The notes beneath the pieces were generated by a model that saw nothing but the letters and a program-made list of their open reading frames with translations, searched no databases and had not been told where the DNA came from. Source: Xenorhabdus griffiniae (GTDB taxonomy: Bacteria; Pseudomonadota; Gammaproteobacteria; Enterobacterales; Enterobacteriaceae). From it: a stretch of 64,000 nucleotides of DNA. A program made the translations under genes and the position numbers. Location: assembly GCF_001028135.1 (NCBI RefSeq), contig NZ_LDNM01000015.1, positions 1 to 64,000 of the forward strand, written 5' to 3'. Below are positions 2,350 through 33,568 of this stretch, piece by piece. Numbering within the stretch: the stretch's first letter is position 1; each line of letters opens with the position of its first letter.

Positions 2350-3774
2350 GTGAGTGAAAGCAAAACAATTCTTGTTAATAGTCTAGCTGACACTATCGCC
2401 AAACGGATGATTTATGCGTCGGGTGGCGTGAGTGGTAATACGAAACGCACCAATATCTATTCTGAGTTTGGGTATCCAGAGCGGCTAACATTTCGTGAGT
2501 ATTACAACGCCTATGAGCGCAATGCTGTAGCGCATGCTGCTGTGCATCGTTTACTGGATGGTTGCTGGCAGGATAACCCGACCATTATTGATGGTGAGGA
2601 AAAGAGCGAGTCAGACGTCACCAGTTCATGGGAAACAAAAGTAACAAAGCTGTTAAAGCGATTCTGGCCGAAAGTCAAAGACGCTGATCGCCGTAATATG
2701 ATTGGTCATTACTCGGCGCTGCTCATTCAGGTTCGGGATAGTCGGGCATGGAGTGAGCCTATTGATACGGTAGTGGTAGCACGATTAAAAGAAGACGCGT
2801 TAGTTAACCTGATCCCGGTCTGGGAAACTCAGCTTACCATTGCTGAGTGGGATACTGATATTAACTCAGACACCTACGGACAGCCAGCGATGTTCAACTT
2901 TGATGAGCGTCCGGTCGGTCAGGTTGAGATACAAGGGCCAGCCAAGCAGCTTGCTATTCATCCATCGCGGGTCATTGTTTTGTGCGAGGGGGCTGAGGAT
3001 GGGAATATTTTTTCTGGAACGCCCCTGCTCAGGGCGGGGTATAACAAATTGCTGGACGTTGAAAAAGTCTCTGGCGGCAGTTCTGAGGGCTTTTTGAAAA
3101 ATGCTTCCCGTCAGATTGGGGTGGAGTTTGATAAAGAAACTGATTTAAACAATATCACCACTGCGGCGGTTCAGGCAGGCTATCCAGATCTGGGGGCAGC
3201 ACTGGAAGATAAAATCCATAAGCTAAACAGGGGGACGGACTCAGCCGCTGTTATGCAAGCAGGTAAGCTGAATGTGTTATCAGTCACGCCGGGTGACCCA
3301 ACTCCAACATGGGAAGTCACTACGCGTGAGTTTTGCGCCTCTGTTCAAGTGCCGTTCACGATCCTGTTTGGTACTCAGACAGGGAAATTGGCTGGTGATA
3401 AAGATGATGCTACATGGAAGGTACGCCTGAACGGTCGCCGCTGGGGATTTCTGACGCAGTATGTCACTCAGCTAATAAAGAGACTGTGGGAGATTGGCAT
3501 TATCGAACCGCCAACATCGGGTGAGGTCACCATTGCATGGTCTGACATGCTCGCAGCCAGTGAGCAAGAGAAGATCGACAACATGATTAAGATGGCTGAG
3601 GCAGCATTGAAAACTCAGCAGGCATTCGGCACACCAATATTTACACCGAATGAAATACGTACCGTGGGTGAGCTGGAACCATTGGAAGATGAACCCGAAC
3701 CACAGGACATAACAGGAGATCCGCTAACCGATGACCCAGACCAGAATCGGAACCCCGATAATACCGAGGAATAA
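2350..3774 (+). CDS. phage portal protein (DUF1073 type)
   Basis: 474 aa. The portal forms the dodecameric channel at the capsid vertex through which DNA enters and leaves. The sequence resembles DUF1073/Phage_portal_3 proteins (YNAYERNAVAHAAVHRLLDG near residue 60; QVPFTILFGTQTGKLA near 335), and its place directly after terL is the normal portal position. The start is GTG 2350, with AAGGAGAG 7-14 bases upstream. Some databases label this family after the anti-CBASS protein Acb1; I see no two-histidine phosphoesterase domain here, and the C-terminus is a short acidic tail, so a structural role is more likely. Confidence 0.85.
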   Translation: MSESKTILVNSLADTIAKRMIYASGGVSGNTKRTNIYSEFGYPERLTFREYYNAYERNAVAHAAVHRLLDGCWQDNPTIIDGEEKSESDVTSSWETKVTKLLKRFWPKVKDADRRNMIGHYSALLIQVRDSRAWSEPIDTVVVARLKEDALVNLIPVWETQLTIAEWDTDINSDTYGQPAMFNFDERPVGQVEIQGPAKQLAIHPSRVIVLCEGAEDGNIFSGTPLLRAGYNKLLDVEKVSGGSSEGFLKNASRQIGVEFDKETDLNNITTAAVQAGYPDLGAALEDKIHKLNRGTDSAAVMQAGKLNVLSVTPGDPTPTWEVTTREFCASVQVPFTILFGTQTGKLAGDKDDATWKVRLNGRRWGFLTQYVTQLIKRLWEIGIIEPPTSGEVTIAWSDMLAASEQEKIDNMIKMAEAALKTQQAFGTPIFTPNEIRTVGELEPLEDEPEPQDITGDPLTDDPDQNRNPDNTEE

Positions 3775-6125: not shown

Positions 6126-6551
6126 ATGGCGAAAGACGGAAAACATGTAATTCATGCTGGCGGCGTGTTTATCAACCCTATGCTAAACCGAGAAGGTGCG
6201 GCGGCGGTCGATACTCAGCCCGGCACGATTGGGTATTTTGAGAAAGGCAAGTTTAAAGCCTCAGTAGATGGCAAGGAAGCGGCAATCCTTTATGTCGCCA
6301 ATATCGATTATTTGCGTTGTCAGGTCGTGGATGATCCTATCACGGCGGGTGGTGTGGTTGTCGGCATTCACCCCATGGCGGGTATTTTCCTGAACGTCCG
6401 TGCGGCAGAGGGAACGTACAAGAAGGGCCAGCCAGTGACGGTCGCTAATGGTCAGATTAAAGCTGCCAGTGATGGGGCTGCATTTGCCTATATAGAAGAA
6501 GACAGCATCACCGTTAAAGCGGGTGAGTTGGTTCGCGTGGTTATTAAGTAA
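6126..6551 (+). CDS. capsid cement/decoration protein (Gp24-like)
   Basis: 141 aa, small, glycine- and valine-rich, all-beta in appearance (YFEKGKFKASVDGKEAA; GTYKKGQPVTVANGQIK; a final SITVKAGELVRVVIK). Small beta-barrel proteins in this place, directly before the major capsid gene, are structural cement proteins that stabilise the expanded head. Five bases separate it from the protease gene, and the capsid gene follows after 10 bases, so all are on one transcript. Role is by position and composition; I do not recognise a diagnostic motif. Confidence 0.6.
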   Translation: MAKDGKHVIHAGGVFINPMLNREGAAAVDTQPGTIGYFEKGKFKASVDGKEAAILYVANIDYLRCQVVDDPITAGGVVVGIHPMAGIFLNVRAAEGTYKKGQPVTVANGQIKAASDGAAFAYIEEDSITVKAGELVRVVIK

Positions 6552-6561
6552 GGAGACATGA

Positions 6562-7653
6562 ATGTTTGTATTTTCAAAATCTATCGGTGAAAAAACCGGT
6601 AATCTGGCAGTCAACCAAATGCAGTTCCGCAAGCTCGAAACGGCACGTAATGCTTCAGCGCAAGCGGTGGCTGATTTTTTGGCTCGCACTCGCTGGCAGG
6701 GAGAGGCGGATAACGCACCTATACTGAACGCGGTCAACGCTATTGACGATATTCGTCGTTTGTACCGTTCGTATGACCAAACGGTACTGGCAGAATTTGA
6801 GCCTAACACAGAGTTCACCTTATTGAATGACCTGATGCCGCTCTCTCGTTCTGTTCGTCTGGAAGAGTCCGTGTATGAGTACGCTCGTACAGGTGGCAAA
6901 GGCTGGGCGCATACGTCCATGAGCGGACAGATTGGTGCTGCACTGGATGCTCGCGCATACTCCTTCGATGGAACGATGGTGCCGATTCACGATTCTGGAT
7001 TCAAATTCCAGTGGCGTGACCCGATTTTCAATAAAGGCTCAGCACTGGCTTCTCTGGCTGATGCGCAACGAGGTTCGGTTGACAGTGTTCGTCGTCAGTA
7101 CATGGGTTACATTTTTAATGGATTCCGAGACAGTGAAGGCAACTATGTTCAGTTTGACGGCAAAACATGGAAAGGACTGAAAGCTGATGAGCGCGTTGGC
7201 ATGGTGGATTTGGGCGCTGGTGGCCTGAATATCGACTTTACCCAATCAGACGCTAAAGCAACCCGCGAAGGAGCCATTGCACTCCGTGACACTCTGCGAC
7301 TGAAAAACAACATGTACGCCGAACAGACGTGGTATGTCTCCGGTGACATTCTGTCTCACTGGGAGAAGATTTACTTCGATGTGAATTCAACCCGTACTGT
7401 GCTGGAAGAGGTTAAACGCCTGATCGGTATCAAAGCTATCAAAGAGGATTTCGAGCTGAAAGGTAACGAAATTCTGGTTGTGCCTTTGGGGGCGGGTGTT
7501 ATTGCGCCTGTCGTTGGTCAAGCATTCGGTACGGTTGCCGATCCACGTCAGTACTACAACTCAGACTACGTGTGGCGCACATGGGGTGCGGCTGGCCTGA
7601 TGGTCAAGACCGATATCAACAACAAACACGGCGTTCTGTTCGCTAAAGGATAA
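6562..7653 (+). CDS. major capsid protein
   Basis: 363 aa, the expected size for an HK97-fold capsid subunit. It starts at ATG 6562 with GGAG 9 bases upstream. The sequence has the character of a main structural protein: no cofactor motifs, conserved-looking blocks such as YEYARTGGKGWAHTSMSG (about residues 110-127) and a C-terminal Gly/Val-rich segment VGQAFGTVADPRQYYNSDY. It lies between the cement protein and the connector genes, which is the canonical capsid position. An N-terminal scaffold-type delta domain is not obvious, consistent with a separate scaffold upstream. Confidence 0.8.
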   Translation: MFVFSKSIGEKTGNLAVNQMQFRKLETARNASAQAVADFLARTRWQGEADNAPILNAVNAIDDIRRLYRSYDQTVLAEFEPNTEFTLLNDLMPLSRSVRLEESVYEYARTGGKGWAHTSMSGQIGAALDARAYSFDGTMVPIHDSGFKFQWRDPIFNKGSALASLADAQRGSVDSVRRQYMGYIFNGFRDSEGNYVQFDGKTWKGLKADERVGMVDLGAGGLNIDFTQSDAKATREGAIALRDTLRLKNNMYAEQTWYVSGDILSHWEKIYFDVNSTRTVLEEVKRLIGIKAIKEDFELKGNEILVVPLGAGVIAPVVGQAFGTVADPRQYYNSDYVWRTWGAAGLMVKTDINNKHGVLFAKG

Positions 7654-9413: not shown

Positions 9414-10166
9414 ATGGCAGATTGCCCGGTAGAAACCAATAAATTGATTGGTCGTAACGCTATTATTCGCATTGCGCAGGGTTGCCCTGATGCAGTGCCA
9501 GATCAATCTGCATTTTTTCGGATAGGTGCATTGACCACCAAATCATTTGACCTGTCACCCAACACACTGACATCTGAGGCTGATGATTCAAAAGGGCTGG
9601 TGGAAAGCGTCGTAACCAGTATGGACTTAACTATCTCGTTTGACGGTGAATACCGTAAGCGGGATAAAGCAGACGACTTCGGCCCACTGCGACTATTAAA
9701 GGAGATCCCCAAGGAAGTTCAAGCGGGCCGCCAGCCGGCGTATTGGGTACAAATGGATTTCACCGGCGAAGATACACTGGTACTACAGGCGTACATGGTG
9801 TTTACATCATGGTCATCTCAGTTTGGCTCTAGCGAGTTTGCTACATACTCTGGCGAACTGAAAGTCAGTGACGCTGATACGGTTGAATGGTTAATTGAAG
9901 AGGTTGCGGTGCAATCAGTTTCTGTTAACCCTCAGTCATTGACAGTAGCAGTAGGGAAAACTGGCTCATTCGTAGTTAATTTCAATCCTACTGATGCTAC
10001 TGACAAAACCTATACCTCAGTATCAGACAAGCCCGGCATTGCGACAGTGAGCCAGATAGGTAACGTGGTAACAGTAAAAGGCATTACGGAAGGAACCGCC
10101 AATATCACAGTGAAAACACGGGACGGCAATAAATCCGCAAAATGTGCAGTGACCGTCACGGCATAA
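9414..10166 (+). CDS. major tail tube protein with C-terminal Ig-like (Big_2) domain
   Basis: 250 aa. Residues ~1-160 are the tube subunit (KSFDLSPNTLTSEADDSKG is typical of lambda gpV-like tubes); residues ~163-250 form a bacterial Ig-like group 2 domain, shown by VSVNPQSLTVAVGKTGSF, GIATVSQIGNVVTVKGITEG and a final CAVTVTA. Such domains project from the tail surface and are thought to bind weakly to cell-surface or environmental sugars; they are accessory to tube assembly. Preceded by a GAGG ribosome site. The following tail chaperone and (after the accessory block) tape measure genes confirm the role. Confidence 0.85.
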   Translation: MADCPVETNKLIGRNAIIRIAQGCPDAVPDQSAFFRIGALTTKSFDLSPNTLTSEADDSKGLVESVVTSMDLTISFDGEYRKRDKADDFGPLRLLKEIPKEVQAGRQPAYWVQMDFTGEDTLVLQAYMVFTSWSSQFGSSEFATYSGELKVSDADTVEWLIEEVAVQSVSVNPQSLTVAVGKTGSFVVNFNPTDATDKTYTSVSDKPGIATVSQIGNVVTVKGITEGTANITVKTRDGNKSAKCAVTVTA

Positions 10167-10973: not shown

Positions 10974-11006
10974 TGTATCAATCATACACCATTGGCGCAC
11001 TTAGAT

Positions 11007-11318
11007 ATGATATTTATCGAGACATCTATCTTTACCGAAGATTGCAAAGAGCTGTTAGGTGATGATGAATATCGTGAATTTCAGCAATACCTTGCAGACA
11101 ATCCCACGGCGGGTGATGTTATCCAACACACAGGTGGACTACGTAAAGTCAGGTGGGCGTCCAGAGGTAAAGGCAAGCGTGGTGGTGTGCGTGTTATTTA
11201 CTATTACAAAGTCGATGTCTCACATATCAGACTGTTGCTGATTTACAAAAAAGGCGTCAAAGACGACCTCAGTGAATCGGAAAAGAAAGTCCTGAGAGCA
11301 TTAAATGAGAGGTGGTAA
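11007..11318 (+). CDS. RelE/HigB-type toxin of a type II toxin-antitoxin pair
   Basis: 103 aa from ATG 11007 (an in-frame TTG at 10992 is weaker). RelE-fold toxins cleave mRNA at the ribosome. The pattern FIETSIFTEDCKELLGDDEYREFQQYL, then GLRKVRWASRGKGKRGGVRVIYYY, is the HigB2/RelE family layout, with the conserved basic KRGGxRVIYY block at about residues 55-65. The antitoxin gene starts two bases after the stop: toxin-first order, as in higBA. It lies in the accessory block after the tail chaperone gene, with its own promoter and terminator, so it can be expressed in the lysogen. Confidence 0.85.
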   Translation: MIFIETSIFTEDCKELLGDDEYREFQQYLADNPTAGDVIQHTGGLRKVRWASRGKGKRGGVRVIYYYKVDVSHIRLLLIYKKGVKDDLSESEKKVLRALNERW

Positions 11319-11320
11319 CA

Positions 11321-11611
11321 ATGGATAGCAAATTATTTGCCAGACTCACCGAAAGCATGGCACAAATGAATGAGATTATTGATGGCGAGCGTGCGCCTTC
11401 TCGTGAAACACTTGTTGAGGCGGTGAAGGTAAAAAGTATTCGTCAGGCGACTGGCTTAAGTCAGGCGGGTTTTGCTAAGTTAATTTCCGTTAATGTTGGA
11501 ACTCTACGTAATTGGGAACAAGGAAGGAGAGAACCGACTGGCCCAGCAAAAGCCCTGTTGAAAGCGATAGAGAAAGATCCTGTCAATGTTCTGAAAGCGT
11601 TATCTATGTAA
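11321..11611 (+). CDS. XRE-family antitoxin (HigA/NadS-like)
   Basis: 96 aa, start ATG 11321 with AGGTGG upstream (a GTG at 11312 is also in frame). The C-terminal half is a Cro/C1-type helix-turn-helix: IRQATGLSQAGFAKLISVNVGTLRNWEQGRR, with the recognition helix GTLRNWEQG. HigA antitoxins bind the toxin and repress the shared promoter; here two inverted repeats overlap that promoter. Followed by a strong terminator, making a closed two-gene unit. Confidence 0.85.
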   Translation: MDSKLFARLTESMAQMNEIIDGERAPSRETLVEAVKVKSIRQATGLSQAGFAKLISVNVGTLRNWEQGRREPTGPAKALLKAIEKDPVNVLKALSM

Positions 11612-11612
11612 A

Positions 11613-11635
11613 CAGCCCCTTACGGGGCTTTTTTG
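11613..11635 (+). terminator. intrinsic terminator after the toxin-antitoxin pair
   Basis: AGCCCC-TTAC-GGGGCT hairpin followed by six T, starting two bases after the antitoxin stop. Confidence 0.85.
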
Positions 11636-11701
11636 TTGAGTAGTTGCTGATATATAACCTAAGCCCAAATTCGGGCCTTGCTCTACCGATAAGTATTGAT
11701 A

Positions 11702-11794
11702 TGCAAAAATGCACATCGTTCACCAAGATAAACTATGCAAATCTGCATAATTAAAGCATAACCCATTGAAAGATAGTCACGTAAAAGTTTTACG
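11702..11794. other. cluster of short palindromes (possible operators)
   Basis: Within a gene-free stretch lie TGCA-AAAA-TGCA (11702-11713), ATGCA-AATC-TGCAT (11735-11748) and the odd-centred palindrome CGTAAAA-G-TTTTACG (11780-11794). The first two share TGCA half-sites and have centres 34 bases apart. No promoter with good boxes was found beside them. They may be binding sites for a phage repressor or structure in an RNA; function unknown. Confidence 0.4.
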
Positions 11795-11829
11795 CGACCT
11801 CATCAGTAGCGCAAAATTAAGCCACAAGC

Positions 11830-11851
11830 AGCCCTATAGGGCTTATTTTTT
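11830..11851 (+). terminator. intrinsic terminator, + strand orientation
   Basis: The perfect palindrome AGCCCTATAGGGCT is followed by a T-rich run (TTATTTTTT) on the + strand and overlaps the stop of the - strand repressor gene. On the - strand there is no T run, so it mainly stops + strand transcripts coming from 11.64-11.83 kb. Confidence 0.6.
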
Positions 11852-12244
11852 GTAGTTAGGTGGTAATGCGTCAATCAAAAGACCGACAGCTTTTTCAATG
11901 ATTTCCGATTGCTGACTGATTTTCATGAACCTATCAGTCTCTGAAAGTTTTAGTGAACTACGTAGCTCGGCCTCTTCTTTTTTTAGTCTATTTATTTCTT
12001 CGTCTTTTTCTTCTGCGGATTTAGCTTTTCTCATTAGTTCTGCAATATAGTCATATATATCGCCTTTATATATATCACCTCTGTTTTTCTGAGTTGAGAC
12101 AATAAGTGTCTCTATTTGTTGGTACTTTTCTAATCTGAAAAGAATTTCTTGCTGCAAGCTCCTTGCTGAGGATTGTGCTTCATTTTCTAAGTTACTCCTA
12201 ACTTCGGGCGGCATTCTTAAAGGGTACGGCGCTATACGTGACAT
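11843..12244 (-). CDS. Arc-family ribbon-helix-helix repressor with coiled-coil tail
   Basis: 133 aa. Start chosen at the - strand ATG 12244, which has AAAGGAG 7 bases upstream; a longer frame to 12313 has none. The N-terminus PYPLRMPPEVRSNLENEAQ, then RSLQQEILFRLEKYQ, is the Arc/MetJ ribbon-helix-helix fold: the PYPLRMP strand contacts DNA. Residues ~55-110 are charged and helical (EEKDEEINRLKKEEAELRSSL) and likely oligomerise. It is transcribed away from a second, shorter Arc-like gene and two antirepressors, the arrangement of mnt/arc/ant in the P22 immI region, so it probably represses the antirepressors. Its own promoter overlaps theirs. Confidence 0.8.
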   Translation of the reverse strand: MSRIAPYPLRMPPEVRSNLENEAQSSARSLQQEILFRLEKYQQIETLIVSTQKNRGDIYKGDIYDYIAELMRKAKSAEEKDEEINRLKKEEAELRSSLKLSETDRFMKISQQSEIIEKAVGLLIDALPPNYKK

Positions 12245-12275
12245 TATTTTGACTCCTTTAGACTCACTAATTGGC

Positions 12276-12304
12276 AGTGTAGGTATCAAATATCTGTTTG
12301 ACAA
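12276..12304 (-). promoter_or_regulatory. promoter for the leftward Arc-like repressor
   Basis: On the - strand TTGTCA (12304-12299) and TACACT (12281-12276) are spaced 17 bases. The -35 overlaps that of the rightward promoter by five bases (TTGACAA is shared). The repressor start is 32 bases downstream of the -10, with a strong ribosome site. Confidence 0.55.
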
Positions 12305-12326
12305 GTGAATCATTATGATCCATCAT
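12298..12326 (+). promoter_or_regulatory. rightward promoter for the small repressor and antirepressors
   Basis: A perfect -35 TTGACA (12298-12303) is followed after 17 bases by CATCAT (12321-12326, 4 of 6). The inverted repeat ATGAT-CC-ATCAT (12315-12326) overlaps the -10 and is a good candidate operator for an Arc-type dimer; in P22 the Arc operator also lies between the -35 and -10 of Pant. Downstream come the short Arc-like gene and the antirepressor. Confidence 0.55.
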
Positions 12327-12368
12327 TTGAATAAATTAAGATGCTTTGAAGGATAAAAAGGATTCATT

Positions 12369-12539
12369 ATGAGTCATAAACAAAGAATACCCCCGTATCC
12401 ATTAAGAATGCCGCCTGAATTAAGAGAGTGGTATGAAGAAGAATCCAACGAGAGCGGGCGCTCTCTAAATGCCGAGATTGTGAAAATTTTGAAGGACAGA
12501 ATGAATAGAGTAATAGGGCAAAGGAAGAATGCAGCATAG
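12369..12539 (+). CDS. small Arc-family ribbon-helix-helix repressor
   Basis: 56 aa, close to P22 Arc (53 aa). It reads MSHKQRIPPYPLRMPPELRE, then ESGRSLNAEIVKILKDRM: one beta strand with the DNA-contact block PYPLRMPPE, then helix, turn and helix with RSLNAEI, the Arc signature. AAAGG lies 8-12 bases before the ATG. It shares the PYPLRMPPE block with the leftward repressor, so the two probably arose by duplication and may recognise similar sites. It is first in the rightward transcript, so it likely acts as a feedback repressor of antirepressor expression, as Arc does. Confidence 0.85.
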   Translation: MSHKQRIPPYPLRMPPELREWYEEESNESGRSLNAEIVKILKDRMNRVIGQRKNAA

Positions 12540-12546
12540 AAACAGT

Positions 12547-12695
12547 GAAGCCCTAGCTGCGCGAACAGACTAGGGCTTCTGAGTGCTATTTACCGTGAGA
12601 TAAACAACTTAGCCATTGTAACGAATGACAAATTAATTTTCCAGAACACTTGCAGGTGTTCTAAAAACAGAAAACCAGCAAATTGAAGTTGCTGG
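12547..12695 (+). promoter_or_regulatory. hairpin-rich leader before the first antirepressor
   Basis: Three stem-loops lie between the small repressor and the BRO-N gene: GAAGCCCTAG/CTAGGGCTTC (12547-12579, 10 perfect pairs, 13-base loop), AGAACAC/GTGTTCT (12643-12662) and CCAGCAA/TTGCTGG (12675-12695), the last ending 30 bases before the antirepressor ATG. None has a clear T run. By position they could attenuate translation or encode an antisense RNA like P22 sar, which lies between arc and ant. The antisense idea is inference. Confidence 0.5.
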
Positions 12696-12724
12696 CATCC
12701 ATAGGTATATCACTGGAGAGATAT

Positions 12725-13483
12725 ATGAATTCCATTATCAAACATTTCGAGTTTAAGTCAAGTAACGACCAATTAGTAACCATTTCTGGCCTGAAATATA
12801 AAGGCAAGCCAGTGTTTTTTGCTGTGAAGTTGGCTGAGGCGTTAGGCTATGCAAACCCATCGGATGCCTTAAGTAAGCATTGTAAGCCATTGATTAAACT
12901 TAATTATAGCGAATCGCGAGAATTAGGGTTGGGTGAAAATCCTCGTGGAATTATCCTTGCTGGACAATCAGATATGTTCAGATTGGTCATGCGCAGTAAT
13001 TTACCTTCTGCTGAACGTTTTCAGGATTGGGTATTTGAATCTGTACTTCCGTCCATTATGGAAACGGGTAGCTATTCAATCAAGCAGAGCCAGTCAGGTT
13101 TACCAGAATACCGTCGTGCCAGAACGTTAAAGATGTCGGTTGATGCGATCTCCAACCTGTTTGACTTGATGCCAAATCTGAGCGATGAAGCAAAACAATG
13201 TGCAGCCGCTAATATCGTTAACCCCATAGTCGGCTTTGAAGCTGTTCCTCTTCCTGTGTTGGAAGAAAAATACTACACAGCAGGTGAAGTAGGAAAGATG
13301 CTGGATGTATCGGCAAACAAAATCGGGCGTGTTGCCAATGAGCACAACCTCAAAAATGAACAACACGGTAAATTCTTTCTGGACAAGTCAGCTCACTCAA
13401 GTAAGCAAGTGGAAGCATTCCGTTATAACGAGAACGGCATTAAGGCACTTAGACATTTAATTCACGGCGTTGAAGCAGCGTAA
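12725..13483 (+). CDS. BRO-N domain antirepressor
   Basis: 252 aa from ATG 12725 (GGAGAG 6-11 bases upstream; an upstream TTG at 12683 lies inside a hairpin). Residues ~1-115 are a BRO-N domain: the block FKSSNDQLVTISGLKYKGKP, then FFAVKLAEALGYANPSDALSKHCK, LAGQSDMFRLVMRSNLPSAE and FQDWVFESVLPSIMETGSY. The C-terminal part (YYTAGEVGKMLDVSANKIGRVANEH) resembles the ANT/KilAC-type DNA- or protein-binding domain. Phage antirepressors bind and inactivate the lysogeny repressor. It is downstream of two Arc-like genes, as expected for the target of their repression. Confidence 0.85.
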   Translation: MNSIIKHFEFKSSNDQLVTISGLKYKGKPVFFAVKLAEALGYANPSDALSKHCKPLIKLNYSESRELGLGENPRGIILAGQSDMFRLVMRSNLPSAERFQDWVFESVLPSIMETGSYSIKQSQSGLPEYRRARTLKMSVDAISNLFDLMPNLSDEAKQCAAANIVNPIVGFEAVPLPVLEEKYYTAGEVGKMLDVSANKIGRVANEHNLKNEQHGKFFLDKSAHSSKQVEAFRYNENGIKALRHLIHGVEAA

Positions 13484-13571
13484 GGATTGAGCGCCAAGGA
13501 TGGCGATCAAATACTGATCTATTCAACAGGATTAACCAATTTAACAGTGATTGCTAGGGTTAACAATACAA

Positions 13572-13719
13572 ATTTACACGTATTTCGTGTGTAAATGGTT
13601 GAAAATACGAGGTGTCTCGCAATTCGAAATATATCACCTTTACAAAAAGTTACAATTACGTAATAAATAGTACCGCTCTGAAACGGCGAAGCCCCTAACT
13701 ACTGCTAATAGTCAGGGGC
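13572..13719 (+). promoter_or_regulatory. hairpin-rich leader before the second antirepressor
   Basis: The 273-base gap before the P22 Ant-type gene has no ORF but contains a stem ATTTACAC/GTGTAAAT (13572-13596) and the stem GCCCCTAACTA/TAGTCAGGGGC (13691-13719, one mismatch, 7-base loop), the latter 38 bases before the start codon. The GAAGCCCC-type stem resembles the one before the first antirepressor. Candidate translation-control or antisense RNA element of the sar/C4 kind; function not shown. Confidence 0.45.
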
Positions 13720-13756
13720 CTCTAAATCGTCTAATACCATCTCAAGGAAAATAGAC

Positions 13757-14362
13757 ATGTCTATTATAGCAACTAAAGAAGTTAGTAAAACTATTAACGT
13801 TCCATTTTATGGCTCAGATCTCTATGTTGTTAATTATAATGGTGAGCCGTATGTACCAATGAAACCTATTGTTGAAGGTATGGGTTTAGCTTGGGGTGCT
13901 CAATTTGTTAAGTTAAAACAACGCTTTAGTAAAGGTGTTTCGGAAATCGAAATACCTACCAAAACAGGTAATCAAGATATGACTTGCCTCGCTCTCCGCA
14001 AACTCGCTGGCTGGTTAGCGACTATCAGCCCGAATAAAGTTAAAGCATCGATCAGGGATAAAGTTATCCGGTATCAGGAAGAGTGCGATGACGTTCTCTA
14101 CGAGTACTGGACTACTGGTGAGGTTAAGGCGAAGAGAGCCACATGCAACCATATTAATTTGTCAACTGAGGTTGATAATGTTAACGCTGCATATAGGGAA
14201 CTGGGTACGTTGATAGATGTTTGGGACAGACTTGACCCGCATTTATCTGTCCTAACTCCTGATATAGCCAAGGTGTTTAATACTGCACTTTCTAATATAG
14301 ACGGCTCTTTATTTTCTCTCAAGACTGCAATTGAGCGGAACTCTAAGGTGTTGTTGAACTAA
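13757..14362 (+). CDS. P22 Ant-type antirepressor (P22_AR_N domain)
   Basis: 201 aa. Residues ~10-125 match the N-terminal domain of P22 antirepressor: INVPFYGSDLYVVNYNGEPYVPMKPIVEGMGLAWGAQ in pattern, then LALRKLAGWLATISPNKVKASIRDKVIRYQEECDDVLYEYW. P22 Ant binds several phage repressors and can trigger induction. At 201 aa it is shorter than P22 Ant (300 aa); the C-terminal ~75 residues are helical and unlike the usual C-terminal domains. It follows AAGGAAAATAGAC and a long hairpin leader. Two different antirepressors in tandem suggest layered or redundant control. Confidence 0.85.
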   Translation: MSIIATKEVSKTINVPFYGSDLYVVNYNGEPYVPMKPIVEGMGLAWGAQFVKLKQRFSKGVSEIEIPTKTGNQDMTCLALRKLAGWLATISPNKVKASIRDKVIRYQEECDDVLYEYWTTGEVKAKRATCNHINLSTEVDNVNAAYRELGTLIDVWDRLDPHLSVLTPDIAKVFNTALSNIDGSLFSLKTAIERNSKVLLN

Positions 14363-14403
14363 CACTAACCCAAGGACGACCTTAATCAAATAACCATCAC
14401 ATA

Positions 14404-14428
14404 AATGCCACTTAACCGTGGCATTTTT
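14404..14428 (+). terminator. intrinsic terminator after the antirepressors
   Basis: AATGCCAC-TTAACC-GTGGCATT followed by TTT, 42 bases after the antirepressor stop. It separates the control module from the lipoprotein gene. Confidence 0.75.
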
Positions 14429-14486
14429 CGTTGTTTTGCGCTAATTGGTTGGTATCATGAGCAAAATTTAACGATGAGGGATTGTG

Positions 14487-14849
14487 ATGAGGAAAATATT
14501 AATAGTTGGAGTGGCCCTATCAACGTTGATGTTGTCTGGATGCTTGGCAACCCCCAATGAAGCCAGAAGCGAAACTCCACGGTTTGAAGGAAATAGTAAT
14601 AAGACTGCAAAAGAGCTTGCAGGATGTATATATAACGGATGGACTAATACAAGAGTTTTGCTGGAAAGGGATAATACAACTCATACTGAATCTTTCGGTG
14701 ACAAAATTACTATATTTACTGTCAATGATGTCATGTTTGCAGATGTAAAAAGCTCTGGGAATGGATCGAATGTGAAATTCTACAAAACAGTACTTGGTGC
14801 CATTCCTCTTGAATCAAATAGAAAAGAAATTGTAGAACAATGTCTTTAA
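14487..14849 (+). CDS. small prophage lipoprotein, unknown function
   Basis: 120 aa from ATG 14487 (GAGGGA upstream; the GTG just before it is in frame too). The N-terminus is a lipoprotein signal: MRK, hydrophobic core, lipobox LSGC with Cys19. No Asp at +2, so outer-membrane sorting is likely. The mature part is small, with Cys near residues 46 and 119 that could form a disulphide (ELAGCIYNGW; VEQCL). Prophage lipoproteins in such accessory blocks often change the cell surface or block superinfection (Cor, Llp, Bor are examples), but this sequence matches none that I recognise. It is next to a membrane protein gene on the same strand, 39 bases away. Confidence 0.75.
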   Translation: MRKILIVGVALSTLMLSGCLATPNEARSETPRFEGNSNKTAKELAGCIYNGWTNTRVLLERDNTTHTESFGDKITIFTVNDVMFADVKSSGNGSNVKFYKTVLGAIPLESNRKEIVEQCL

Positions 14850-14888
14850 TGATTTTAGTGTGAGAAAAATTTAATTTTGGAGATGATT

Positions 14889-15428
14889 ATGTCGGAAGTA
14901 TTAATACCGGGTGAACCAAGAGATTACTACAAAATTTTCACGAAGAATGATGATAGCGAATGCTATCAGGCCAATAGGCGTACAATAAGAGAGTTAATGT
15001 CAGAGATAAATAAAGCCACTGGACAATATCAATATAATGGTGACCTTAATGCGGTAATGCTAACTCATCAAGATTATTATGACGCCTTTGATGCTTTTAT
15101 TCTCAATGAACCTGACGATGCAAAGATGGCTATGCGTAATGTGTTGGCAGAAGAAATGAAAGCCAAAGAATGCGAGTTGAATGTTAATGATGTCTCTATG
15201 CTGAAAGGGATAGGCGTTATATTAGCACTCATTGGCATTTGTATTTGTTTTTATGCTATTACCATGAGTGTAACCATTAGTCGTTATGATGAGGTGATTA
15301 ATGCTGGATTGATTGCAGATAGACAACTCTATATGACGGGTGGAGTATCAATAACTATCATTGGCTCGTTGGCAACTCTATTTTCTTTGCTTTTAAGTAA
15401 AATGGGAAAACGTTTTATAGCAAGATAA
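14889..15428 (+). CDS. two-helix inner membrane protein, unknown function
   Basis: 179 aa from ATG 14889, with GGAG 7-10 bases upstream. The first ~100 residues are soluble and acidic (GEPRDYYKIFTKNDDSECY; MLTHQDYYDAFDAFILNEPDDAK). Two transmembrane helices follow, at ~105-128 (GIGVILALIGICICFYAITM) and ~146-170 (GVSITIIGSLATLFSLLLS), ending in a basic GKRFIAR tail. Not recognised. The lipoprotein gene just upstream and the place in a prophage accessory block suggest a lysogeny-expressed membrane function such as superinfection exclusion, but that is inference only. A terminator follows. Confidence 0.7.
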   Translation: MSEVLIPGEPRDYYKIFTKNDDSECYQANRRTIRELMSEINKATGQYQYNGDLNAVMLTHQDYYDAFDAFILNEPDDAKMAMRNVLAEEMKAKECELNVNDVSMLKGIGVILALIGICICFYAITMSVTISRYDEVINAGLIADRQLYMTGGVSITIIGSLATLFSLLLSKMGKRFIAR

Positions 15429-15459
15429 TAAGATCATCAAACTGCCAGTTTGGTAATTG

Positions 15460-15483
15460 AAGCCCCTTATGGGGCTTTATTTG
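15460..15483. terminator. terminator shared by convergent genes
   Basis: AAGCCCC-TTAT-GGGGCTT followed on the + strand by TATTTGTTTGTTTT. It closes the + strand membrane-protein gene, and its distal arm overlaps the last codons of the - strand antitoxin gene, which converges here. Confidence 0.7.
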
Positions 15484-15841
15484 TTTGTTTTATCAGGATA
15501 TCGGCAGGTATTCCGAACATGCCATGTAAATTGCGGATCATGGGCAGCGTTAGATTACGTTTTCTGCTCAGAACCTCATAGACACGATTAGACTTACCAA
15601 TGGCTGGCTCTAAATCTTTTACAGTCAGGCCAGATTGTTCCATTCTGAATTTAATAGCTTCAATCGGATCTGGCGGGTCAATGGGGTAATGTTTTTCTTC
15701 ATAGGCTTCAATCAGTAATACCATAACTTCCATATAATCAAACTCAGGTGTGCCAGTTTCGGGTTGGTTATCGAATAGTGGCGCAATGGCTTTCAGTGCG
15801 TCCTGATAATCCTGTTCTGTTCTGATAGGTTTAATATTCAT
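15467..15841 (-). CDS. higA: HigA antitoxin
   Basis: 124 aa. The N-terminal ~60 residues (IRTEQDYQDALKAIAPLFD, then YMEVMVLLIEAYEEKHYPID) are the usual HigA lead-in and the C-terminal half is an XRE helix-turn-helix (IEAIKFRMEQSGLTVKDLEPAIGKSNRVYEVLSRKRNLTLPMI in pattern). HigA binds HigB and represses the operon. Start follows the toxin stop by two bases. This is the second toxin-first pair in the accessory block, unrelated in sequence to the first. Confidence 0.9.
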   Translation of the reverse strand: MNIKPIRTEQDYQDALKAIAPLFDNQPETGTPEFDYMEVMVLLIEAYEEKHYPIDPPDPIEAIKFRMEQSGLTVKDLEPAIGKSNRVYEVLSRKRNLTLPMIRNLHGMFGIPADILIKQTNKAP

Positions 15842-15843
15842 TT

Positions 15844-16146
15844 TTACTCCATATCTACGGTATTAGCATCTATGGCATCGTACTGTTTGTGAGTACCGAT
15901 AAATTTAACGTATACCCATCCAGCGGGGTAAAAGATGGAGACGATTAATCGATAATCATTTCCCTTAATGTTAAATACCACTCGATTATTTTTCAGAATG
16001 CTTGCGTTGCGGTATTGAGCCTTAATGTCAGCAGGTGTTTTCCAAGAGGCTTTTTTAGCCTCATCAAACCAAGCTCTTAGTGGCTGCTCTGCATCCGGGT
16101 ACTTTTCCCAGAACGCTTTCAGTGATGCAACGGATATTATTTTCAT
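15844..16146 (-). CDS. higB: HigB toxin (mRNA interferase)
   Basis: 100 aa of the HigB_toxin family: LKAFWEKYPDAEQPLRAWFDEAKKASW, then ILKNNRVVFNIKGNDYRLIV and WVYVKFIGTHKQYDAID, including the conserved Arg/Tyr (NDYRLIV) and the GTHxQYD end. Family members cut mRNA on translating ribosomes. First gene of a two-gene - strand operon; the antitoxin follows after two bases. It is transcribed against the phage late operon, so it should be expressed from its own promoter in the lysogen. Confidence 0.9.
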   Translation of the reverse strand: MKIISVASLKAFWEKYPDAEQPLRAWFDEAKKASWKTPADIKAQYRNASILKNNRVVFNIKGNDYRLIVSIFYPAGWVYVKFIGTHKQYDAIDANTVDME

Positions 16147-16157
16147 AACTTTTACTC

Positions 16158-16176
16158 TAGTCCCATTTCGGGACTA
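16158..16176. promoter_or_regulatory. higBA operator-like palindrome
   Basis: TAGTCCC-ATTTC-GGGACTA, a perfect 7-base inverted repeat ending 12 bases upstream of the higB start codon on the - strand. It is a good candidate HigA operator. As RNA it would also form a hairpin near the ribosome site. Confidence 0.55.
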
Positions 16177-16235
16177 TGGCAAGAATTTATTGTTCAAAAA
16201 TGAGTCGCTTTAGCGATTTTTTCAGGGGCTAGAAA

Positions 16236-19200
16236 ATGGCAGAACATCAAGTAGGCAACATTGTTTATCAGGTATCAATGGATGTAGCGCAATTGCTGAC
16301 AGCGCAACGGCAATTAGATTCGCGCTTGGGACAGGTGGAGCAACGTTTTAACCAAACAGGACAGGCGGTTAATGGAGCAGAAAAGGCGATATTGAGTCTA
16401 TCAAGAGCTGCCACTGCGGTAACAGCAGCGTTATCTGTTGAGAAAATAGCTGGCTATGCTGATGCGTGGGTTACGGTAAATAACAAGCTGGTCAACGCCA
16501 CGAAAGCAAATGAATCACTGGCAGAAGTATCTGAGCGCGTATTCACTATTGCTCAAAACTCCCGTGCCAGTCTGGATTCTACCGCCGCGTTGTATGGTCG
16601 CCTTGAAAGAGCTACCCGTGCTTATGGTACATCGGCTGATGATGTCGCAAAACTAACCGAAACTGTAGCAAAAGGTCTGGTCGTTTCAGGTGCAACTGCG
16701 GCGGAATCATCGAGCGTCATGATTCAGTTCTCGCAAGCTATGGCCTCTGGCGTTCTGCGTGGTGAAGAATTTAACTCCATGTCTGAGAACGGAAGTCGCT
16801 TAATTGCAGCATTAAGCGATCACCTTGGCGTGAATATTGGTCAGCTAAGGAAGATGGCGGCGGAGGGGAAACTGACGTCCACGGTCGTAGCTCAGGCTTT
16901 TCTAGCTCAGGCTGGAACTATCGCTAAAGAATTCGATAAAACCTCAGCGACTATGAGCCAGTCAATGGAAATGGCAGCTAACAATATGACTCGGTTCTTT
17001 GGTCAATCAACCACAGTTCAAACAGCGCTTAAAGCATTTAATAGCACTCTGGTTACTGTTAGTGAAAACATGGATCTTGTTGCGGGTGCTGCGACTGCTT
17101 TAGCCGTTGTGATGGGGTCGAGGATGGTTAGTGCGATGACATTAGCGGCGAGCCAAAAGATAACAAATGCTAGGGCTGCTATAGCATTAGCGCAAGCTAA
17201 TAAAGCAGAAGCGCAAAGTGTACTCTATGCCGCCGAAATGACGTTGAGAAAAGCAGCGCTGGATAAGGAAGCTGCATTATCAGCCCTGCGTGTCGCTGAG
17301 GCTGAATATGCAGCAGCGAAGGGAACTGATGCAGCTACAGCAGCACTTGCCAGATTAACCGCCGCTCGCACCACAGCAACGACAGCAACAGTCGCATATG
17401 GAACCGCACAAAATGCAGTCACTGCCGCTCAAACAGGATTCGCAGCAGCCTCAAGAGGCGCAACTATTGCAGTGAATGGACTCAAAGCAGCCATGTCATT
17501 TTTAGGTGGGCCACTTGGTGTGGTTATGCTGGCAGCAGCAGCGCTTTATTATTTCCACCAGCGAGCAGAAGAAGCGAAGAACGAGGCCAAAGATCTATCT
17601 AATACGGTCGAGAGTCTGACCGGTAACTTAAAGGAGTTGAGTAAGGCCAAACTTGAATCGAATAAAGTCGAATTAGAAAGAAAACTAGACGAACAACGTG
17701 AACAGGTAAAAAAACAAAAAGTAAAAGTAAGTGGCATTCAATATGATGTTAATAAAAATGGCCGTTTTATATACTCAACAAAATCTGAAAAGGAAATGAA
17801 GAAGCTCAGAGAAGATTTGGCTCTAGCTAAAGGTGAGCTTGAGGATATGCAAACGGTCGAGAGTAATTATGAAAAAGCCATTGATCTAACCAGTAAAGCC
17901 ATTGCTGAGAACACCGCGCTGACTAATGAGAACACTGATGCCATTAAGGATAAGAATAAAGAGTCTGATCAGGCGTCTGAAAAAGCGGCAGATTTTATCA
18001 CCAAGCTCAAGCAAGAAAATGAATTACTCAGAACCAAAAAGGGGTTAGAACGAGACTTAAAAGCCGCAGAGTTCAAAGCTAACGAACTAGGGGCAAGCTC
18101 AGGGCAAAAAGAAGATTTAAAGGCCTCAGTCAAAGAAAATATACAGCTCAAAGAGGCTGAAAAACAACGAGAAGATGCCGCCAGAGAAGCGGAAAATGCA
18201 GCTAAAAAAGCCGCCGATGAAGCCAAACGGCGATCAGATGATATTACCGCAGCACTCAAACGTCAGCGTGACGAAATAGACCGTCTCAAAACAGGCTACG
18301 AGGAAGCTAGCCGTGAAATGGCTATGTACGATGCTGCTAAAGCCATGCCGGAAGGTTCTGGCGAGGAACAGATTGAAAAAGCCAGAAGAAATGCAGCAGA
18401 AAGATACGATCTGGAAAAGAATTACGAAGCCAGAAAGTGGGCGCTGGAACAAGATTCTTTAGCGAAATCCAAAAAGGCAATGGATGAAGAGCTTGAGCAT
18501 TTGAGGCACGTCAAGGTTCAGGGCTTGATTGAAATAGAAGAGTTCAATAAGCGCGAGCAAGAGATAAGAGAGCGTTATAAGAATAAGCAAACGGAAGATG
18601 AAATTAACAAGAAAGTTGATTCATCGGTGGGCTTTAATGAAGAAATGTTGGGTAAAGTAGACCCTATCCAGCAACTCCAGAATGAATACGCTCAGAAAAT
18701 GGCTATGCTGGATGCTTATAATGCCCATGATATTGGCGAGCATGAACGAATCTTGCAACTCAAATCTGAACTGACCCGTAAATTCAATGATGATATGACT
18801 ACCGCTCAATGGGAGCAATGGAAAGGCCAGAATGAGATGTATCAATTTCTGGGCGATGCCGTTGAAGCATTGGGCCAGCGTTCAGCCAATGCTATCACAG
18901 GGCTGCTAACTGGCACTCAGACCGCCAATGAAGCTATGAGAAATCTGGCGCTTACTATCACGAATGAGGCGGTATCTGCACTGGTTCAGATGGGTATGCA
19001 GCAAATAAAGAACATGATTATCGGTAAGGCCGTGAATACTGCGGCGGCGGCATCGGCAGTTGCCACAGGCGCGACGATTACTACGGCAATGGCTCCTGCT
19101 GCTGCGGCTACCAGCGTAGCAACAATGGGAACAGCGGCTACAGTCGGTATGATGGCAATGGCAACTGCTGTACCTGCGATGATTGCGTTGCTCGGTGCTC

Positions 19201-19520
19201 GTAAAAACGGTGGCCCAGTCAGTCCGAACGGTGCTTACCGTATTGGTGAGAATAATAAGCCGGAGATATTCAAGGCTAATAATGGTCACCAGTACATGAT
19301 ACCGGGCGATAGAGGCAAGGTGATCAGTAATCGGGATATGGGGAGTGGCAATGGGAAGACCATTGTTCTCCAGCAAACAAATCAGATCACAATTACTACA
19401 CAAGGCGGGGTTACGGAGCAAGATGCAAGAATGCTTTCAAATATCATTGATGCTAAAATGAACGAGTTTGTCGTGAACCAAATGAGAGATAATGGTCTTT
19501 TTGAGAAAGTCGGATATTAA
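16236..19520 (+). CDS. tail tape measure protein
   Basis: 1094 aa. Sets tail length and passes into the host on injection. Residues ~50-270 carry the tape-measure domain typical of lambda-like phages (AGYADAWVTVNNKL; FTIAQNSRASLDSTAALYGRL; GVLRGEEFNSMSENGSRLIAAL). Hydrophobic stretches near 290, 418-435 (GVVMLAAAALYYF) and a long Ala/Met/Thr-rich segment near 950-990 could insert in membrane; residues ~330-410, 440-560 and 620-790 are Ala/Glu/Lys-rich coiled coil. A weak CAGGGG ribosome site precedes the ATG. The gene is separated from its chaperone by the 5.3 kb accessory block. Confidence 0.95.
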   Translation: MAEHQVGNIVYQVSMDVAQLLTAQRQLDSRLGQVEQRFNQTGQAVNGAEKAILSLSRAATAVTAALSVEKIAGYADAWVTVNNKLVNATKANESLAEVSERVFTIAQNSRASLDSTAALYGRLERATRAYGTSADDVAKLTETVAKGLVVSGATAAESSSVMIQFSQAMASGVLRGEEFNSMSENGSRLIAALSDHLGVNIGQLRKMAAEGKLTSTVVAQAFLAQAGTIAKEFDKTSATMSQSMEMAANNMTRFFGQSTTVQTALKAFNSTLVTVSENMDLVAGAATALAVVMGSRMVSAMTLAASQKITNARAAIALAQANKAEAQSVLYAAEMTLRKAALDKEAALSALRVAEAEYAAAKGTDAATAALARLTAARTTATTATVAYGTAQNAVTAAQTGFAAASRGATIAVNGLKAAMSFLGGPLGVVMLAAAALYYFHQRAEEAKNEAKDLSNTVESLTGNLKELSKAKLESNKVELERKLDEQREQVKKQKVKVSGIQYDVNKNGRFIYSTKSEKEMKKLREDLALAKGELEDMQTVESNYEKAIDLTSKAIAENTALTNENTDAIKDKNKESDQASEKAADFITKLKQENELLRTKKGLERDLKAAEFKANELGASSGQKEDLKASVKENIQLKEAEKQREDAAREAENAAKKAADEAKRRSDDITAALKRQRDEIDRLKTGYEEASREMAMYDAAKAMPEGSGEEQIEKARRNAAERYDLEKNYEARKWALEQDSLAKSKKAMDEELEHLRHVKVQGLIEIEEFNKREQEIRERYKNKQTEDEINKKVDSSVGFNEEMLGKVDPIQQLQNEYAQKMAMLDAYNAHDIGEHERILQLKSELTRKFNDDMTTAQWEQWKGQNEMYQFLGDAVEALGQRSANAITGLLTGTQTANEAMRNLALTITNEAVSALVQMGMQQIKNMIIGKAVNTAAAASAVATGATITTAMAPAAAATSVATMGTAATVGMMAMATAVPAMIALLGARKNGGPVSPNGAYRIGENNKPEIFKANNGHQYMIPGDRGKVISNRDMGSGNGKTIVLQQTNQITITTQGGVTEQDARMLSNIIDAKMNEFVVNQMRDNGLFEKVGY

Positions 19521-33013: not shown

Positions 33014-33568
33014 TCTAACTTACTCATTATTTTTTACATGAATATAGAGCTGCGAGTAAAAAAGAGGCGAGCTACTAGTTACCGATGGCCTCGTGTCTTT
33101 TACAAAACCGTCAGCCTCACGGCTATCGTTTGTATAGAGGCGCCTATTTGTCGGCGAGTCTGAATTTCATTTGAACACAGTACTCTTTATTGGGGCACTG
33201 TAATAAATAGGTACAGATTTTACCCAATCCAGTAAGCTGCCACCCGCAGCCCATAAATTATTTGATCGAACATTACGTCTTATGCCATTGCTGCGTTTTT
33301 GCTCGATCAAACAGATAACAAACAATTTCAATCTTGCCATTCATAGTTTAGTAAACCGTGGCCAGAAAGCATTATTCCATTGCTATTGGGGTGATAGCAA
33401 GGTGACTTTGTCGCTTTACAGGTTTTTTATTAGGAAATAGTGATAAGTTGTTAATATTTAGTCTTTATCCTAAGTCACCTGAAACAATGAAGTAGGAAAA
33501 ATGGCTGTTATTTAGACATAGTTAAAAATGAGTGGCGCTCTGTTTGTTGGATTATTAGAATCTCACCC
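33014..33568 (-). promoter_or_regulatory. rne 5' leader and rne/rluC divergent promoter region
   Basis: 555 bases without a gene. In E. coli a ~360-nt rne leader lets RNase E degrade its own message. Here the - strand shows several stem-loops, among them GTGAGGCTGACGG-containing sequence near 33105-33125, and a perfect 9-base inverted repeat TTTGATCGA/TCGATCAAA (33261-33269 and 33303-33311). The rne start lies 33013 on the - strand; the rluC start is at the other end. Promoter boxes could not be assigned with confidence. Confidence 0.6.

Follow-up and report, generated by a model that had tools for sequence, protein, structure and literature searches.

How would a single prophage locus keep two different antirepressors in check? 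The question arises in a 64,000-nucleotide (nt) stretch of Xenorhabdus griffiniae DNA (contig NZ_LDNM01000015.1, positions 1 to 64,000; the window hereafter), in which two ribbon-helix-helix (RHH) repressor genes are followed by two antirepressor-type genes of unlike domains. We read the locus, which lies in a prophage tail operon, as an anti-immunity module of the P22 immI type, or 'ant moron', in which each of two antirepressors has its own predicted antisense RNA, and we put the probability of this reading at about 75%. An earlier note on this DNA missed its main feature, which is three predicted small-RNA genes antisense to the leaders.

Two antirepressor genes and the antisense RNAs predicted over their starts

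12725 to 13483, plus strand: Ant1, putative BRO-N antirepressor, 252 amino acids (aa), Pfam Bro-N 4.1e-18
13757 to 14362, plus strand: Ant2, putative P22_AR_N antirepressor, 201 aa, Pfam P22_AR_N 3.1e-41
12663 to 12730, minus strand: predicted class II antisense RNA, covering the Ant1 ribosome site and start codon and ending in a hairpin and T-run terminator
13680 to 13760, minus strand: sar2, predicted sar-family antisense RNA, covering the Ant2 ribosome site and start codon

Both proteins are putative antirepressors, which would inactivate phage repressors. Ant1 matches phrog_1726 (anti-repressor, 1.8e-52) in PHROG, the best anti-repressor match of Ant2 is at 2e-66, and both frames are open and conserved in relatives. 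The earlier note had named four proteins here, an immI-like set of two Arc-type repressors and these two antirepressors. All four lie where it had placed them and have the domains it had named: the profile search matched Arc/TraY, Arc, Bro-N and P22_AR_N in Pfam, with PHROG agreeing for the two large open reading frames (ORFs), and the ORFs at 12725 and 13757 both match antirepressor domains.

Two antirepressors are not novel in themselves, because the arrangement recurs in related prophages. Among 206 sequences surveyed (205 loci, most of them fetched by similarity to Ant1 or Ant2, and the window), many have a divergent RHH pair followed by one or two antirepressor-type genes. Klebsiella phage ST11-VIM1phi8.1 has two such genes ahead of its tape measure gene, and the ES18-like phage vB_SosS_Oslo has one in that place, with a KilA-domain gene upstream.

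Two hairpin classes were seen in the leaders inspected. Class I is sar-like (GAAGCCC...GGGCTTC); class II has another hairpin, preceded on the plus strand by an A-run, the two together reading as a minus-strand terminator. Genes with the Ant1 C-terminal domain gave 56 distinct leaders, of which 33 of class II were selected manually, the remaining 23 being near copies, showing no clear hairpin of this kind or (L021) having been passed over. In these 33, window included, the hairpin ends 28–40 nt ahead of the start codon. The class II covariance model (R1) was built from 26 aligned sequences, with exclusion of the window and the nearest relatives at Ant1 (loci L019, L020 and L022), and the window copy lay outside this training set. 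Compensatory changes were found in 7 of the 9 hairpin pairs. Cells with changes on both sides numbered 39; shuffles gave 11.0, none of 500 reaching 39, and sliding the partner gave no more than 4. The minus-strand T-run appeared as six tail columns with T in at least 90% of the 26 rows.

When R1 was run over both strands of the 64 kb, a single match up to E 5 was obtained, at 12663–12730 on the minus strand (37.1 bits, E 8.6e-5). A further model, R3, excluded L041 because this row shares 85% of the Ant1 C-terminal part; R3 matched the window with 38.0 bits (E 1e-5), the next matches having E 0.71 and 2.1. In the 4.18-Mb genome, where 150 of 1,525 first-look candidates were scored, R1 gave one match at E≤0.01, at the same place (E 0.0056). 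The window RNA has the three features of the class II group: an R1 match at an antirepressor start, a covarying terminator hairpin and a candidate minus-strand promoter. In 13 loci, of which 8 have an R1 match at E<0.01, Rfam at its gathering thresholds detected none of the class II RNAs, nor did it at E≤10 in the window stretch 11600–16300; we did not find this predicted group of RNAs described.

Both models were applied to 100 of 215 loci, hand-chosen to drop near copies (733 kb). R1 gave 47 matches at E<0.01, and in all 47 the distance between the 5′ end of the predicted RNA and the start codon of an ORF of at least 100 aa is constant, a placement found for 7.75% of 4,000 random positions. 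Antirepressor profiles built in this analysis match 39 of the 47 targets. The other 8 carry ORF6N (3), KilA-N with ANT (1), ANT (1) or Rha (2, the match in L067 lying slightly below the Pfam cut-off) or have no Pfam hit (1, L104). From this mix of domains, the class II RNA would be tied to a position within the operon and not to a single family of proteins.

The same mix bears on what Ant1 and Ant2 are. They may be DNA-binding regulators of host or phage genes, Roi- or Rha-like, instead of antirepressors; class II RNA also lies over Rha, ORF6N and KilA-N proteins, and in phage PhiR12_3 the protein matched by the C-terminus of Ant1 bears the annotation Roi. We consider this unlikely, as the PHROG names of both are anti-repressor (names, not tests) and their position after an arc-type gene parallels that of P22 ant.

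For class I, a broader model including P22 sar (R2) was built from 30 sequences, the window and apparent close relatives being excluded, with compensatory changes in 6 of 13 pairs. R2 matches both sar copies of the window, sar2 and the sar1 treated below; sar2 scores 59.5 bits (E 7.2e-10), and two further listed hits have only E 1.3 and 2.5. By sequence and structure, a predicted sar thus covers the start of Ant2, as in P22 immI. Rfam sar (RF00262) gave two minus-strand matches below threshold, one per antirepressor (sar1 28.5 bits, E 0.011; sar2 18.8 bits, E 3.7; gathering 43), and neither copy is assigned to RF00262 here. In 47 non-redundant class I leaders, kept from 109 regular-expression matches with ATG sought from 24 nt on, the hairpin ends 30–39 nt ahead of the ATG. 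Of 104 R2 matches at E<0.01 in the 100 loci, 90 sit where an ORF of at least 100 aa starts, and 89 of these share one offset. Class II occurs in 46 chains, and in 35 of them class I comes first and class II second, each with its ORF; the rest comprise 5 with an ORF-less class I before class II, 4 with class II alone and 2 with a place matched by both models. Class I stands alone in 37 chains.

We do not hold the two classes to be fully separate, as L041, L047, L050, L059 and L090 have places matched by both models. The leader RNA of L041, a training row of R1, scores at 3614–3694 with both (R1 42.8, R2 38.1 bits) and is possibly an intermediate between class I and class II.

Candidate promoters of the three RNAs lie on the minus strand:

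12734 to 12761, minus strand: candidate promoter of the class II RNA, TTGACT-16-GATAAT
13763 to 13789, minus strand: candidate promoter of sar2, extended -10 tgcTATAAT
12615 to 12643, minus strand: candidate promoter of sar1, TGGAAA-17-TACAAT

The minus-strand promoter score of the first 16 codons was compared with that of synonymous-codon shuffles. A p≤0.05 was reached by 29 of 39 distinct class II targets (14 of 19 outside the training loci) and 57 of 79 distinct sar targets, compared with 14 of 207 control ORFs (207 usable of 220 drawn); Ant2, under sar2, has p 0.0065. The signal of the predicted minus-strand promoters at these gene starts goes beyond what coding constraint would give. These results also bear on whether the hairpins act only in cis, within the ant mRNA (in ribosome-site folding, as RNase III sites or as spacers), with no antisense RNA made. 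In favour of this, hairpins can fold on either strand. The T-run, however, is on the minus strand, the promoters go beyond coding constraint, the distance from hairpin to start codon is narrow in both classes, and P22 sar, which has the same layout, is annotated as an antisense RNA. A role in cis only is thus quite improbable, and antisense RNAs remain the preferred reading.

Several points weigh against our reading of the module as a whole. Agreement at start codons is partly built in, because the start-codon complement is in both models. Only 21 of the 47 class II matches lie outside the 26 training loci, several being close kin of training rows, and the surveyed loci, having been retrieved through their likeness to Ant1 or Ant2, are not an unbiased sample. 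The covariance-model E-values are rough, from a short calibration, and both window copies of sar stay below the RF00262 gathering threshold. Promoter weights were entered by hand, and the window Ant1 promoter (class II) taken alone has p 0.07. Ant2, aligned with 10 relatives, lacks the middle and C-terminal part of P22 Ant. The operator motif described below was picked by eye after the window and relatives had been viewed.

Because the class II RNA and sar have unlike sequences, each ant gene could be silenced on its own. The control with more than one output suggested by the earlier note is plausible; the evidence for it is the one predicted antisense RNA per antirepressor, not the repressors.

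The predicted orphan RNA sar1 and sar copies in the genus

12539 to 12612, minus strand: sar1, orphan sar-family antisense RNA (predicted), R2 40.9 bits, E 3.9e-6, z -7.1

Where a start codon would be expected at sar1 the sequence is TTA, and no long ORF begins there. Nine distinct sequences, those of the window and 8 relatives, were compared, and each of the 24 base pairs in the two sar1 hairpins is present in all of them: 10 are invariant, 11 show changes on one side and 3 on both, every change giving a standard pair. The TACAAT of its candidate promoter is invariant in the 9. The observed percentage paired and covariation score were reached in 1 of 500 shuffles, the count of pairs changed on both sides in 37 of 500 and that of further pair types in 25 of 500, these shuffles being lenient because the rows are related.

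Sar1 could be what remains of a lost antirepressor, or of an N-terminal extension that Ant1 once had, in a decaying module whose antirepressors no longer function. Besides the TTA, the frame across sar1 is on that side: it is open for at least 45 codons in 7 of 7 sequences read and enters the next antirepressor in L021 and L104, closing before it in the other 5, window included. If the pairs are slid by one column, both-side changes are also as numerous as in the actual structure (3 pairs, 5 cells), a point against conserved pairing, though the share of cells that pair falls to 43%. In P22-like phages, according to the part of the source available, the ant genes of the 'ant moron' can be degraded (PMC2629481). 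The complete pairing and invariant -10 box of sar1 speak against decay, as do the open and conserved frames of Ant1 and Ant2, and the frame under sar1 is not significantly like P22_AR N-termini. We regard decay as very unlikely, and sar1 as a conserved, predicted RNA gene without a gene start beneath it.

A P22_AR antirepressor remnant under sar1 was rejected, its similarity of 27 not going beyond shuffles (median of shuffled maxima 25). An action of sar1 on Ant2 was also rejected: the duplex energy of -7.5 kcal/mol, against -71.3 kcal/mol for the cognate sar2, indicates that sar1 should not act there. In L021 (3776–4759) and L104 (2822–3751), one frame is open from the arc end onward, crosses both sar1 and the class II leader and enters the antirepressor, of which it could give a long form.

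Sar1, class II RNA and sar2 are all present in every genus genome that has this leader, 5 of 30 with the window genome included; one of the five, L212, has an extra sar upstream. R2 matches at E≤0.001 occur in at least 23 of the 30 genus genomes and at 8 or more places in this genome, these counts being lower bounds because scoring covered 150 of the roughly 900–1,670 first-look candidates in each genome. For R1, matches at E≤0.01 occur in 3 of 30.

Sixty-six sar copies were viewed in context: those in 40 regions around higher-scoring matches elsewhere in the genus, those in 4 regions of this genome, and the 2 window copies. An ORF of at least 100 aa lies at 44 of them, none at 21, and one is cut by an edge. 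The 21 comprise five of the sar1 type (TTA, window included), seven over a 7–10 aa frame such as MSTHNRE, six over a 36–99 aa frame (two of 99) and three with no frame or one of 11 aa. In the loci L007 (3520–3594), L008 (3580–3655) and L011 (3520–3595), sar lies over a leader frame of 7–10 aa (MSTHNRE, MSTLTKRVTK) that immediately precedes the start of an antirepressor; this may point to control via a translated leader.

A 38-nt antisense segment is identical in the RNAs of contigs C65 (sar2), C188 and C222 of this genome, from which these RNAs should cross-silence; the terminator hairpin of sar2 differs from those of the C188 and C222 copies. In L217 (C222), the sar at 6515–6596 lies over a 130-aa frame that keeps only the first 35–36 residues of Ant2. 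It is conceivable, if doubtful, that sar RNAs are kept as trans-acting immunity RNAs, orphan or shared copies silencing antirepressors of other prophages or of incoming phages. If so, the lysogen would be guarded by a pool of RNA 'passwords'.

Putative repressor genes, operator-like sites and proposed working

11843 to 12244, minus strand: Mnt-like repressor gene (putative), 133 aa, RHH domain and long C-terminal helices
12369 to 12539, plus strand: Arc-like repressor gene (putative), 56 aa, Pfam Arc 2.1e-7
12251 to 12266, minus strand: operator-like O1, tandem TGAGTC ahead of the Mnt-like start, rank 1
12306 to 12321, plus strand: operator-like O2, within the Pant spacer, rank 2
12360 to 12375, plus strand: operator-like O3, over the Arc-like start codon, rank 3
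12276 to 12304, minus strand: candidate Pmnt, TTGTCA-17-TACACT (TTGTCA from 12304, TACACT to 12276), a consensus match only
12298 to 12326, plus strand: candidate Pant, TTGACA-17-CATCAT, its -35 overlapping that of Pmnt
14403 to 14426, plus strand: candidate terminator after Ant2, from a terminator scan

As in P22 immI, divergent Mnt- and Arc-type RHH genes are present, and a P22_AR_N antirepressor follows the Arc-type gene, although in second place behind the BRO-N protein. The immI-like label of the earlier note holds. The case for it is stronger than the note's author could tell, since an antisense RNA of the sar type, one more component of P22 immI, is also predicted here.

The leftward protein matches Pfam TraY (9.7e-5) and Arc (1.4e-4), both barely above the cut-offs. 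Its listed start is 12313; the start was put at 12244 because a ribosome site (aaggag) precedes the ATG there. An AlphaFold monomer model (9 sequences) had a mean predicted local distance difference test score of 70 and a predicted template modelling score of 0.31, with residues 1–8 under 50, and helices were predicted at 63–98 and 102–126. No significant match to solved structures was found (1mnt, E 0.45), and the name Mnt-like comes from the layout and the modelled helices, not from a sequence match. The Arc-like protein matches the solved structures of Mnt (1mnt, 3e-4) and Arc (1arq, 0.012) by sequence.

The PYPLRMPPE block reported for both RHH proteins is indeed common to them, and their RHH domains are 52.5% identical over 40 residues (45% in the P22 pair). 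Two contact positions, named after those of Arc (Q9, N11), agree in 0.47 of within-locus comparisons and 0.18 of those across loci, and partners agree at both in 11 of 33 pairs, the other 31 of 64 pairs having been dropped because the block was not recognised in both and relatedness being uncorrected. A mere family consensus is disfavoured as the origin of the block by this higher agreement within loci, with clades uncorrected and those 31 pairs left aside.

A tandem TGAGTC motif with a 10-bp period occurs at three sites: the Mnt-like start, the Pant spacer and the Arc-like start. With a matrix from 21 sites of 7 relatives, window and L022 excluded, O1, O2 and O3 rank as the top three among 127,970 window positions. 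When each site was left out of training in turn, the ranks with the 16-base and half-site matrices were 6 and 1 for O1, 3 and 10 for O2, and 7 and 2 for O3. The inference from shared block to shared operators thus gains some support from the motif sites and the contact agreement within loci. The palindrome ATCATTATGAT was rejected as an operator, not being kept in relatives, and TCATNATGA occurs at chance (3 against 2.03 expected).

As for the promoter pair proposed by the earlier note, both candidates are present and TTGACA stands at the position equivalent to that of Pant in all 9 intergenic regions compared, but promoter-like sites in the region are no commoner than in shuffles (17 observed, 16.3 expected from shuffled sequence).

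From the genes, the conserved RNA structures and their placement, the promoter constraint and the shared operator-like motif, we infer a working in which transcription, pairing, silencing, repressor binding and antirepressor activity would combine as follows. In a lysogen, the Mnt-like and Arc-like repressors would bind the tandem TGAGTC sites and close Pant and Pmnt. Short minus-strand RNAs would be made from promoters within the opening codons of both ant genes, and would end at their own terminator hairpins and pair with each ribosome site and start codon. They would block antirepressor synthesis even from read-through of the late operon, which protein repressors at Pant could not stop; the repressors would set transcription from Pant and the antisense RNAs translation. 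Should repression fail, Ant1 and Ant2 would inactivate phage repressors, and induction would follow.

The claim that the module sits inside the tail operon was borne out, a major tail protein (9414–10166) being encoded upstream and a tape measure protein (16236–19520) downstream. Toxin-antitoxin-like pairs lie on either side of the module, a RelE-like gene with a helix-turn-helix gene upstream (10992–11611, plus strand) and a HigB-toxin gene with a transcriptional-regulator gene downstream (15467–16146, minus strand). Two small genes lie between Ant2 and the tape measure gene (14484–14849 and 14877–15428, plus strand); one matches phrog_914 (function unknown) and the other, more weakly, phrog_8032. 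Terminator-like hairpins of the plus strand are at 11614, 14403 and 15458. The only Rfam match at gathering in the window is rne5, the RNase E 5′ UTR element, at 33038–33368 (minus strand), and the NCBIfam search gave one weak match, under its cut-off. Named genomes nearest to parts of the module are of Proteus, Erwinia, Xenorhabdus and Photorhabdus.

Comparison with known systems

P22 sar is a classical antisense RNA, treated as the P22-type case in the portions of the literature available to us. Its layout recurs in many prophages, where a second predicted RNA class joins it over the next antirepressor, whatever its domain type (BRO-N, ORF6N, KilA-N, Rha or ANT), and sar is kept even where no gene begins beneath it. 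This gives a simple annotation rule for such operons and a direct test of whether one prophage polices the antirepressors of another through RNA.

The phages vB_SosS_Oslo (Salmonella) and ST11-VIM1phi8.1 (Klebsiella) are like the window in having the module ahead of the tape measure gene, and the latter also in its two antirepressor-type genes, though its Ant1 homologue is second and that of the window first; no antisense RNA is annotated in the compared stretches of either phage. The window RNAs are predicted from the strand opposite to the antirepressor gene, over its start codon, and differ in this from c4 RNA of P1 and P7 and from CA RNA of N15. Rfam C4 has no match in the 64 kb at gathering, nor in 11600–16300 at E≤10. 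In P1, P7 and N15 a small RNA silences an antirepressor gene (PMC12197685, PMC10732415), as one would in the window. STnc6030 of prophage BTP1 is likewise a prophage antisense RNA; in the part of the source at hand it is a superinfection-exclusion factor, and it is relevant only as a precedent for the orphan sar1 (PMC7067206). No second antisense RNA at antirepressor genes is described in the sections available from the open-licence PubMed Central (PMC) literature (including PMC2629481, PMC10732415, PMC12197685 and PMC7067206).

An 'ant moron' with mnt, arc, sar and ant has been described as mosaic in P22-like phages (epsilon34), in the accessible part of PMC2629481. The window module resembles it in the insertion into a late operon, the mnt/arc/sar/ant content and the rapid flux, and differs in that sar is the sole antisense RNA named in that part (PMC2629481). 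With P22 immI itself, the window shares the divergent RHH pair, the order of an Arc-like gene and then an antirepressor, the P22_AR_N domain in Ant2, and the sar over the start codon with a promoter within the first codons. It differs in its two antirepressors, the second and unlike antisense RNA, the orphan sar1, the contact block shared by the RHH proteins, the overlapping -35 boxes and the shortened Ant2, and in its place, the window module being ahead of the tape measure gene and that of P22 ahead of tailspike.

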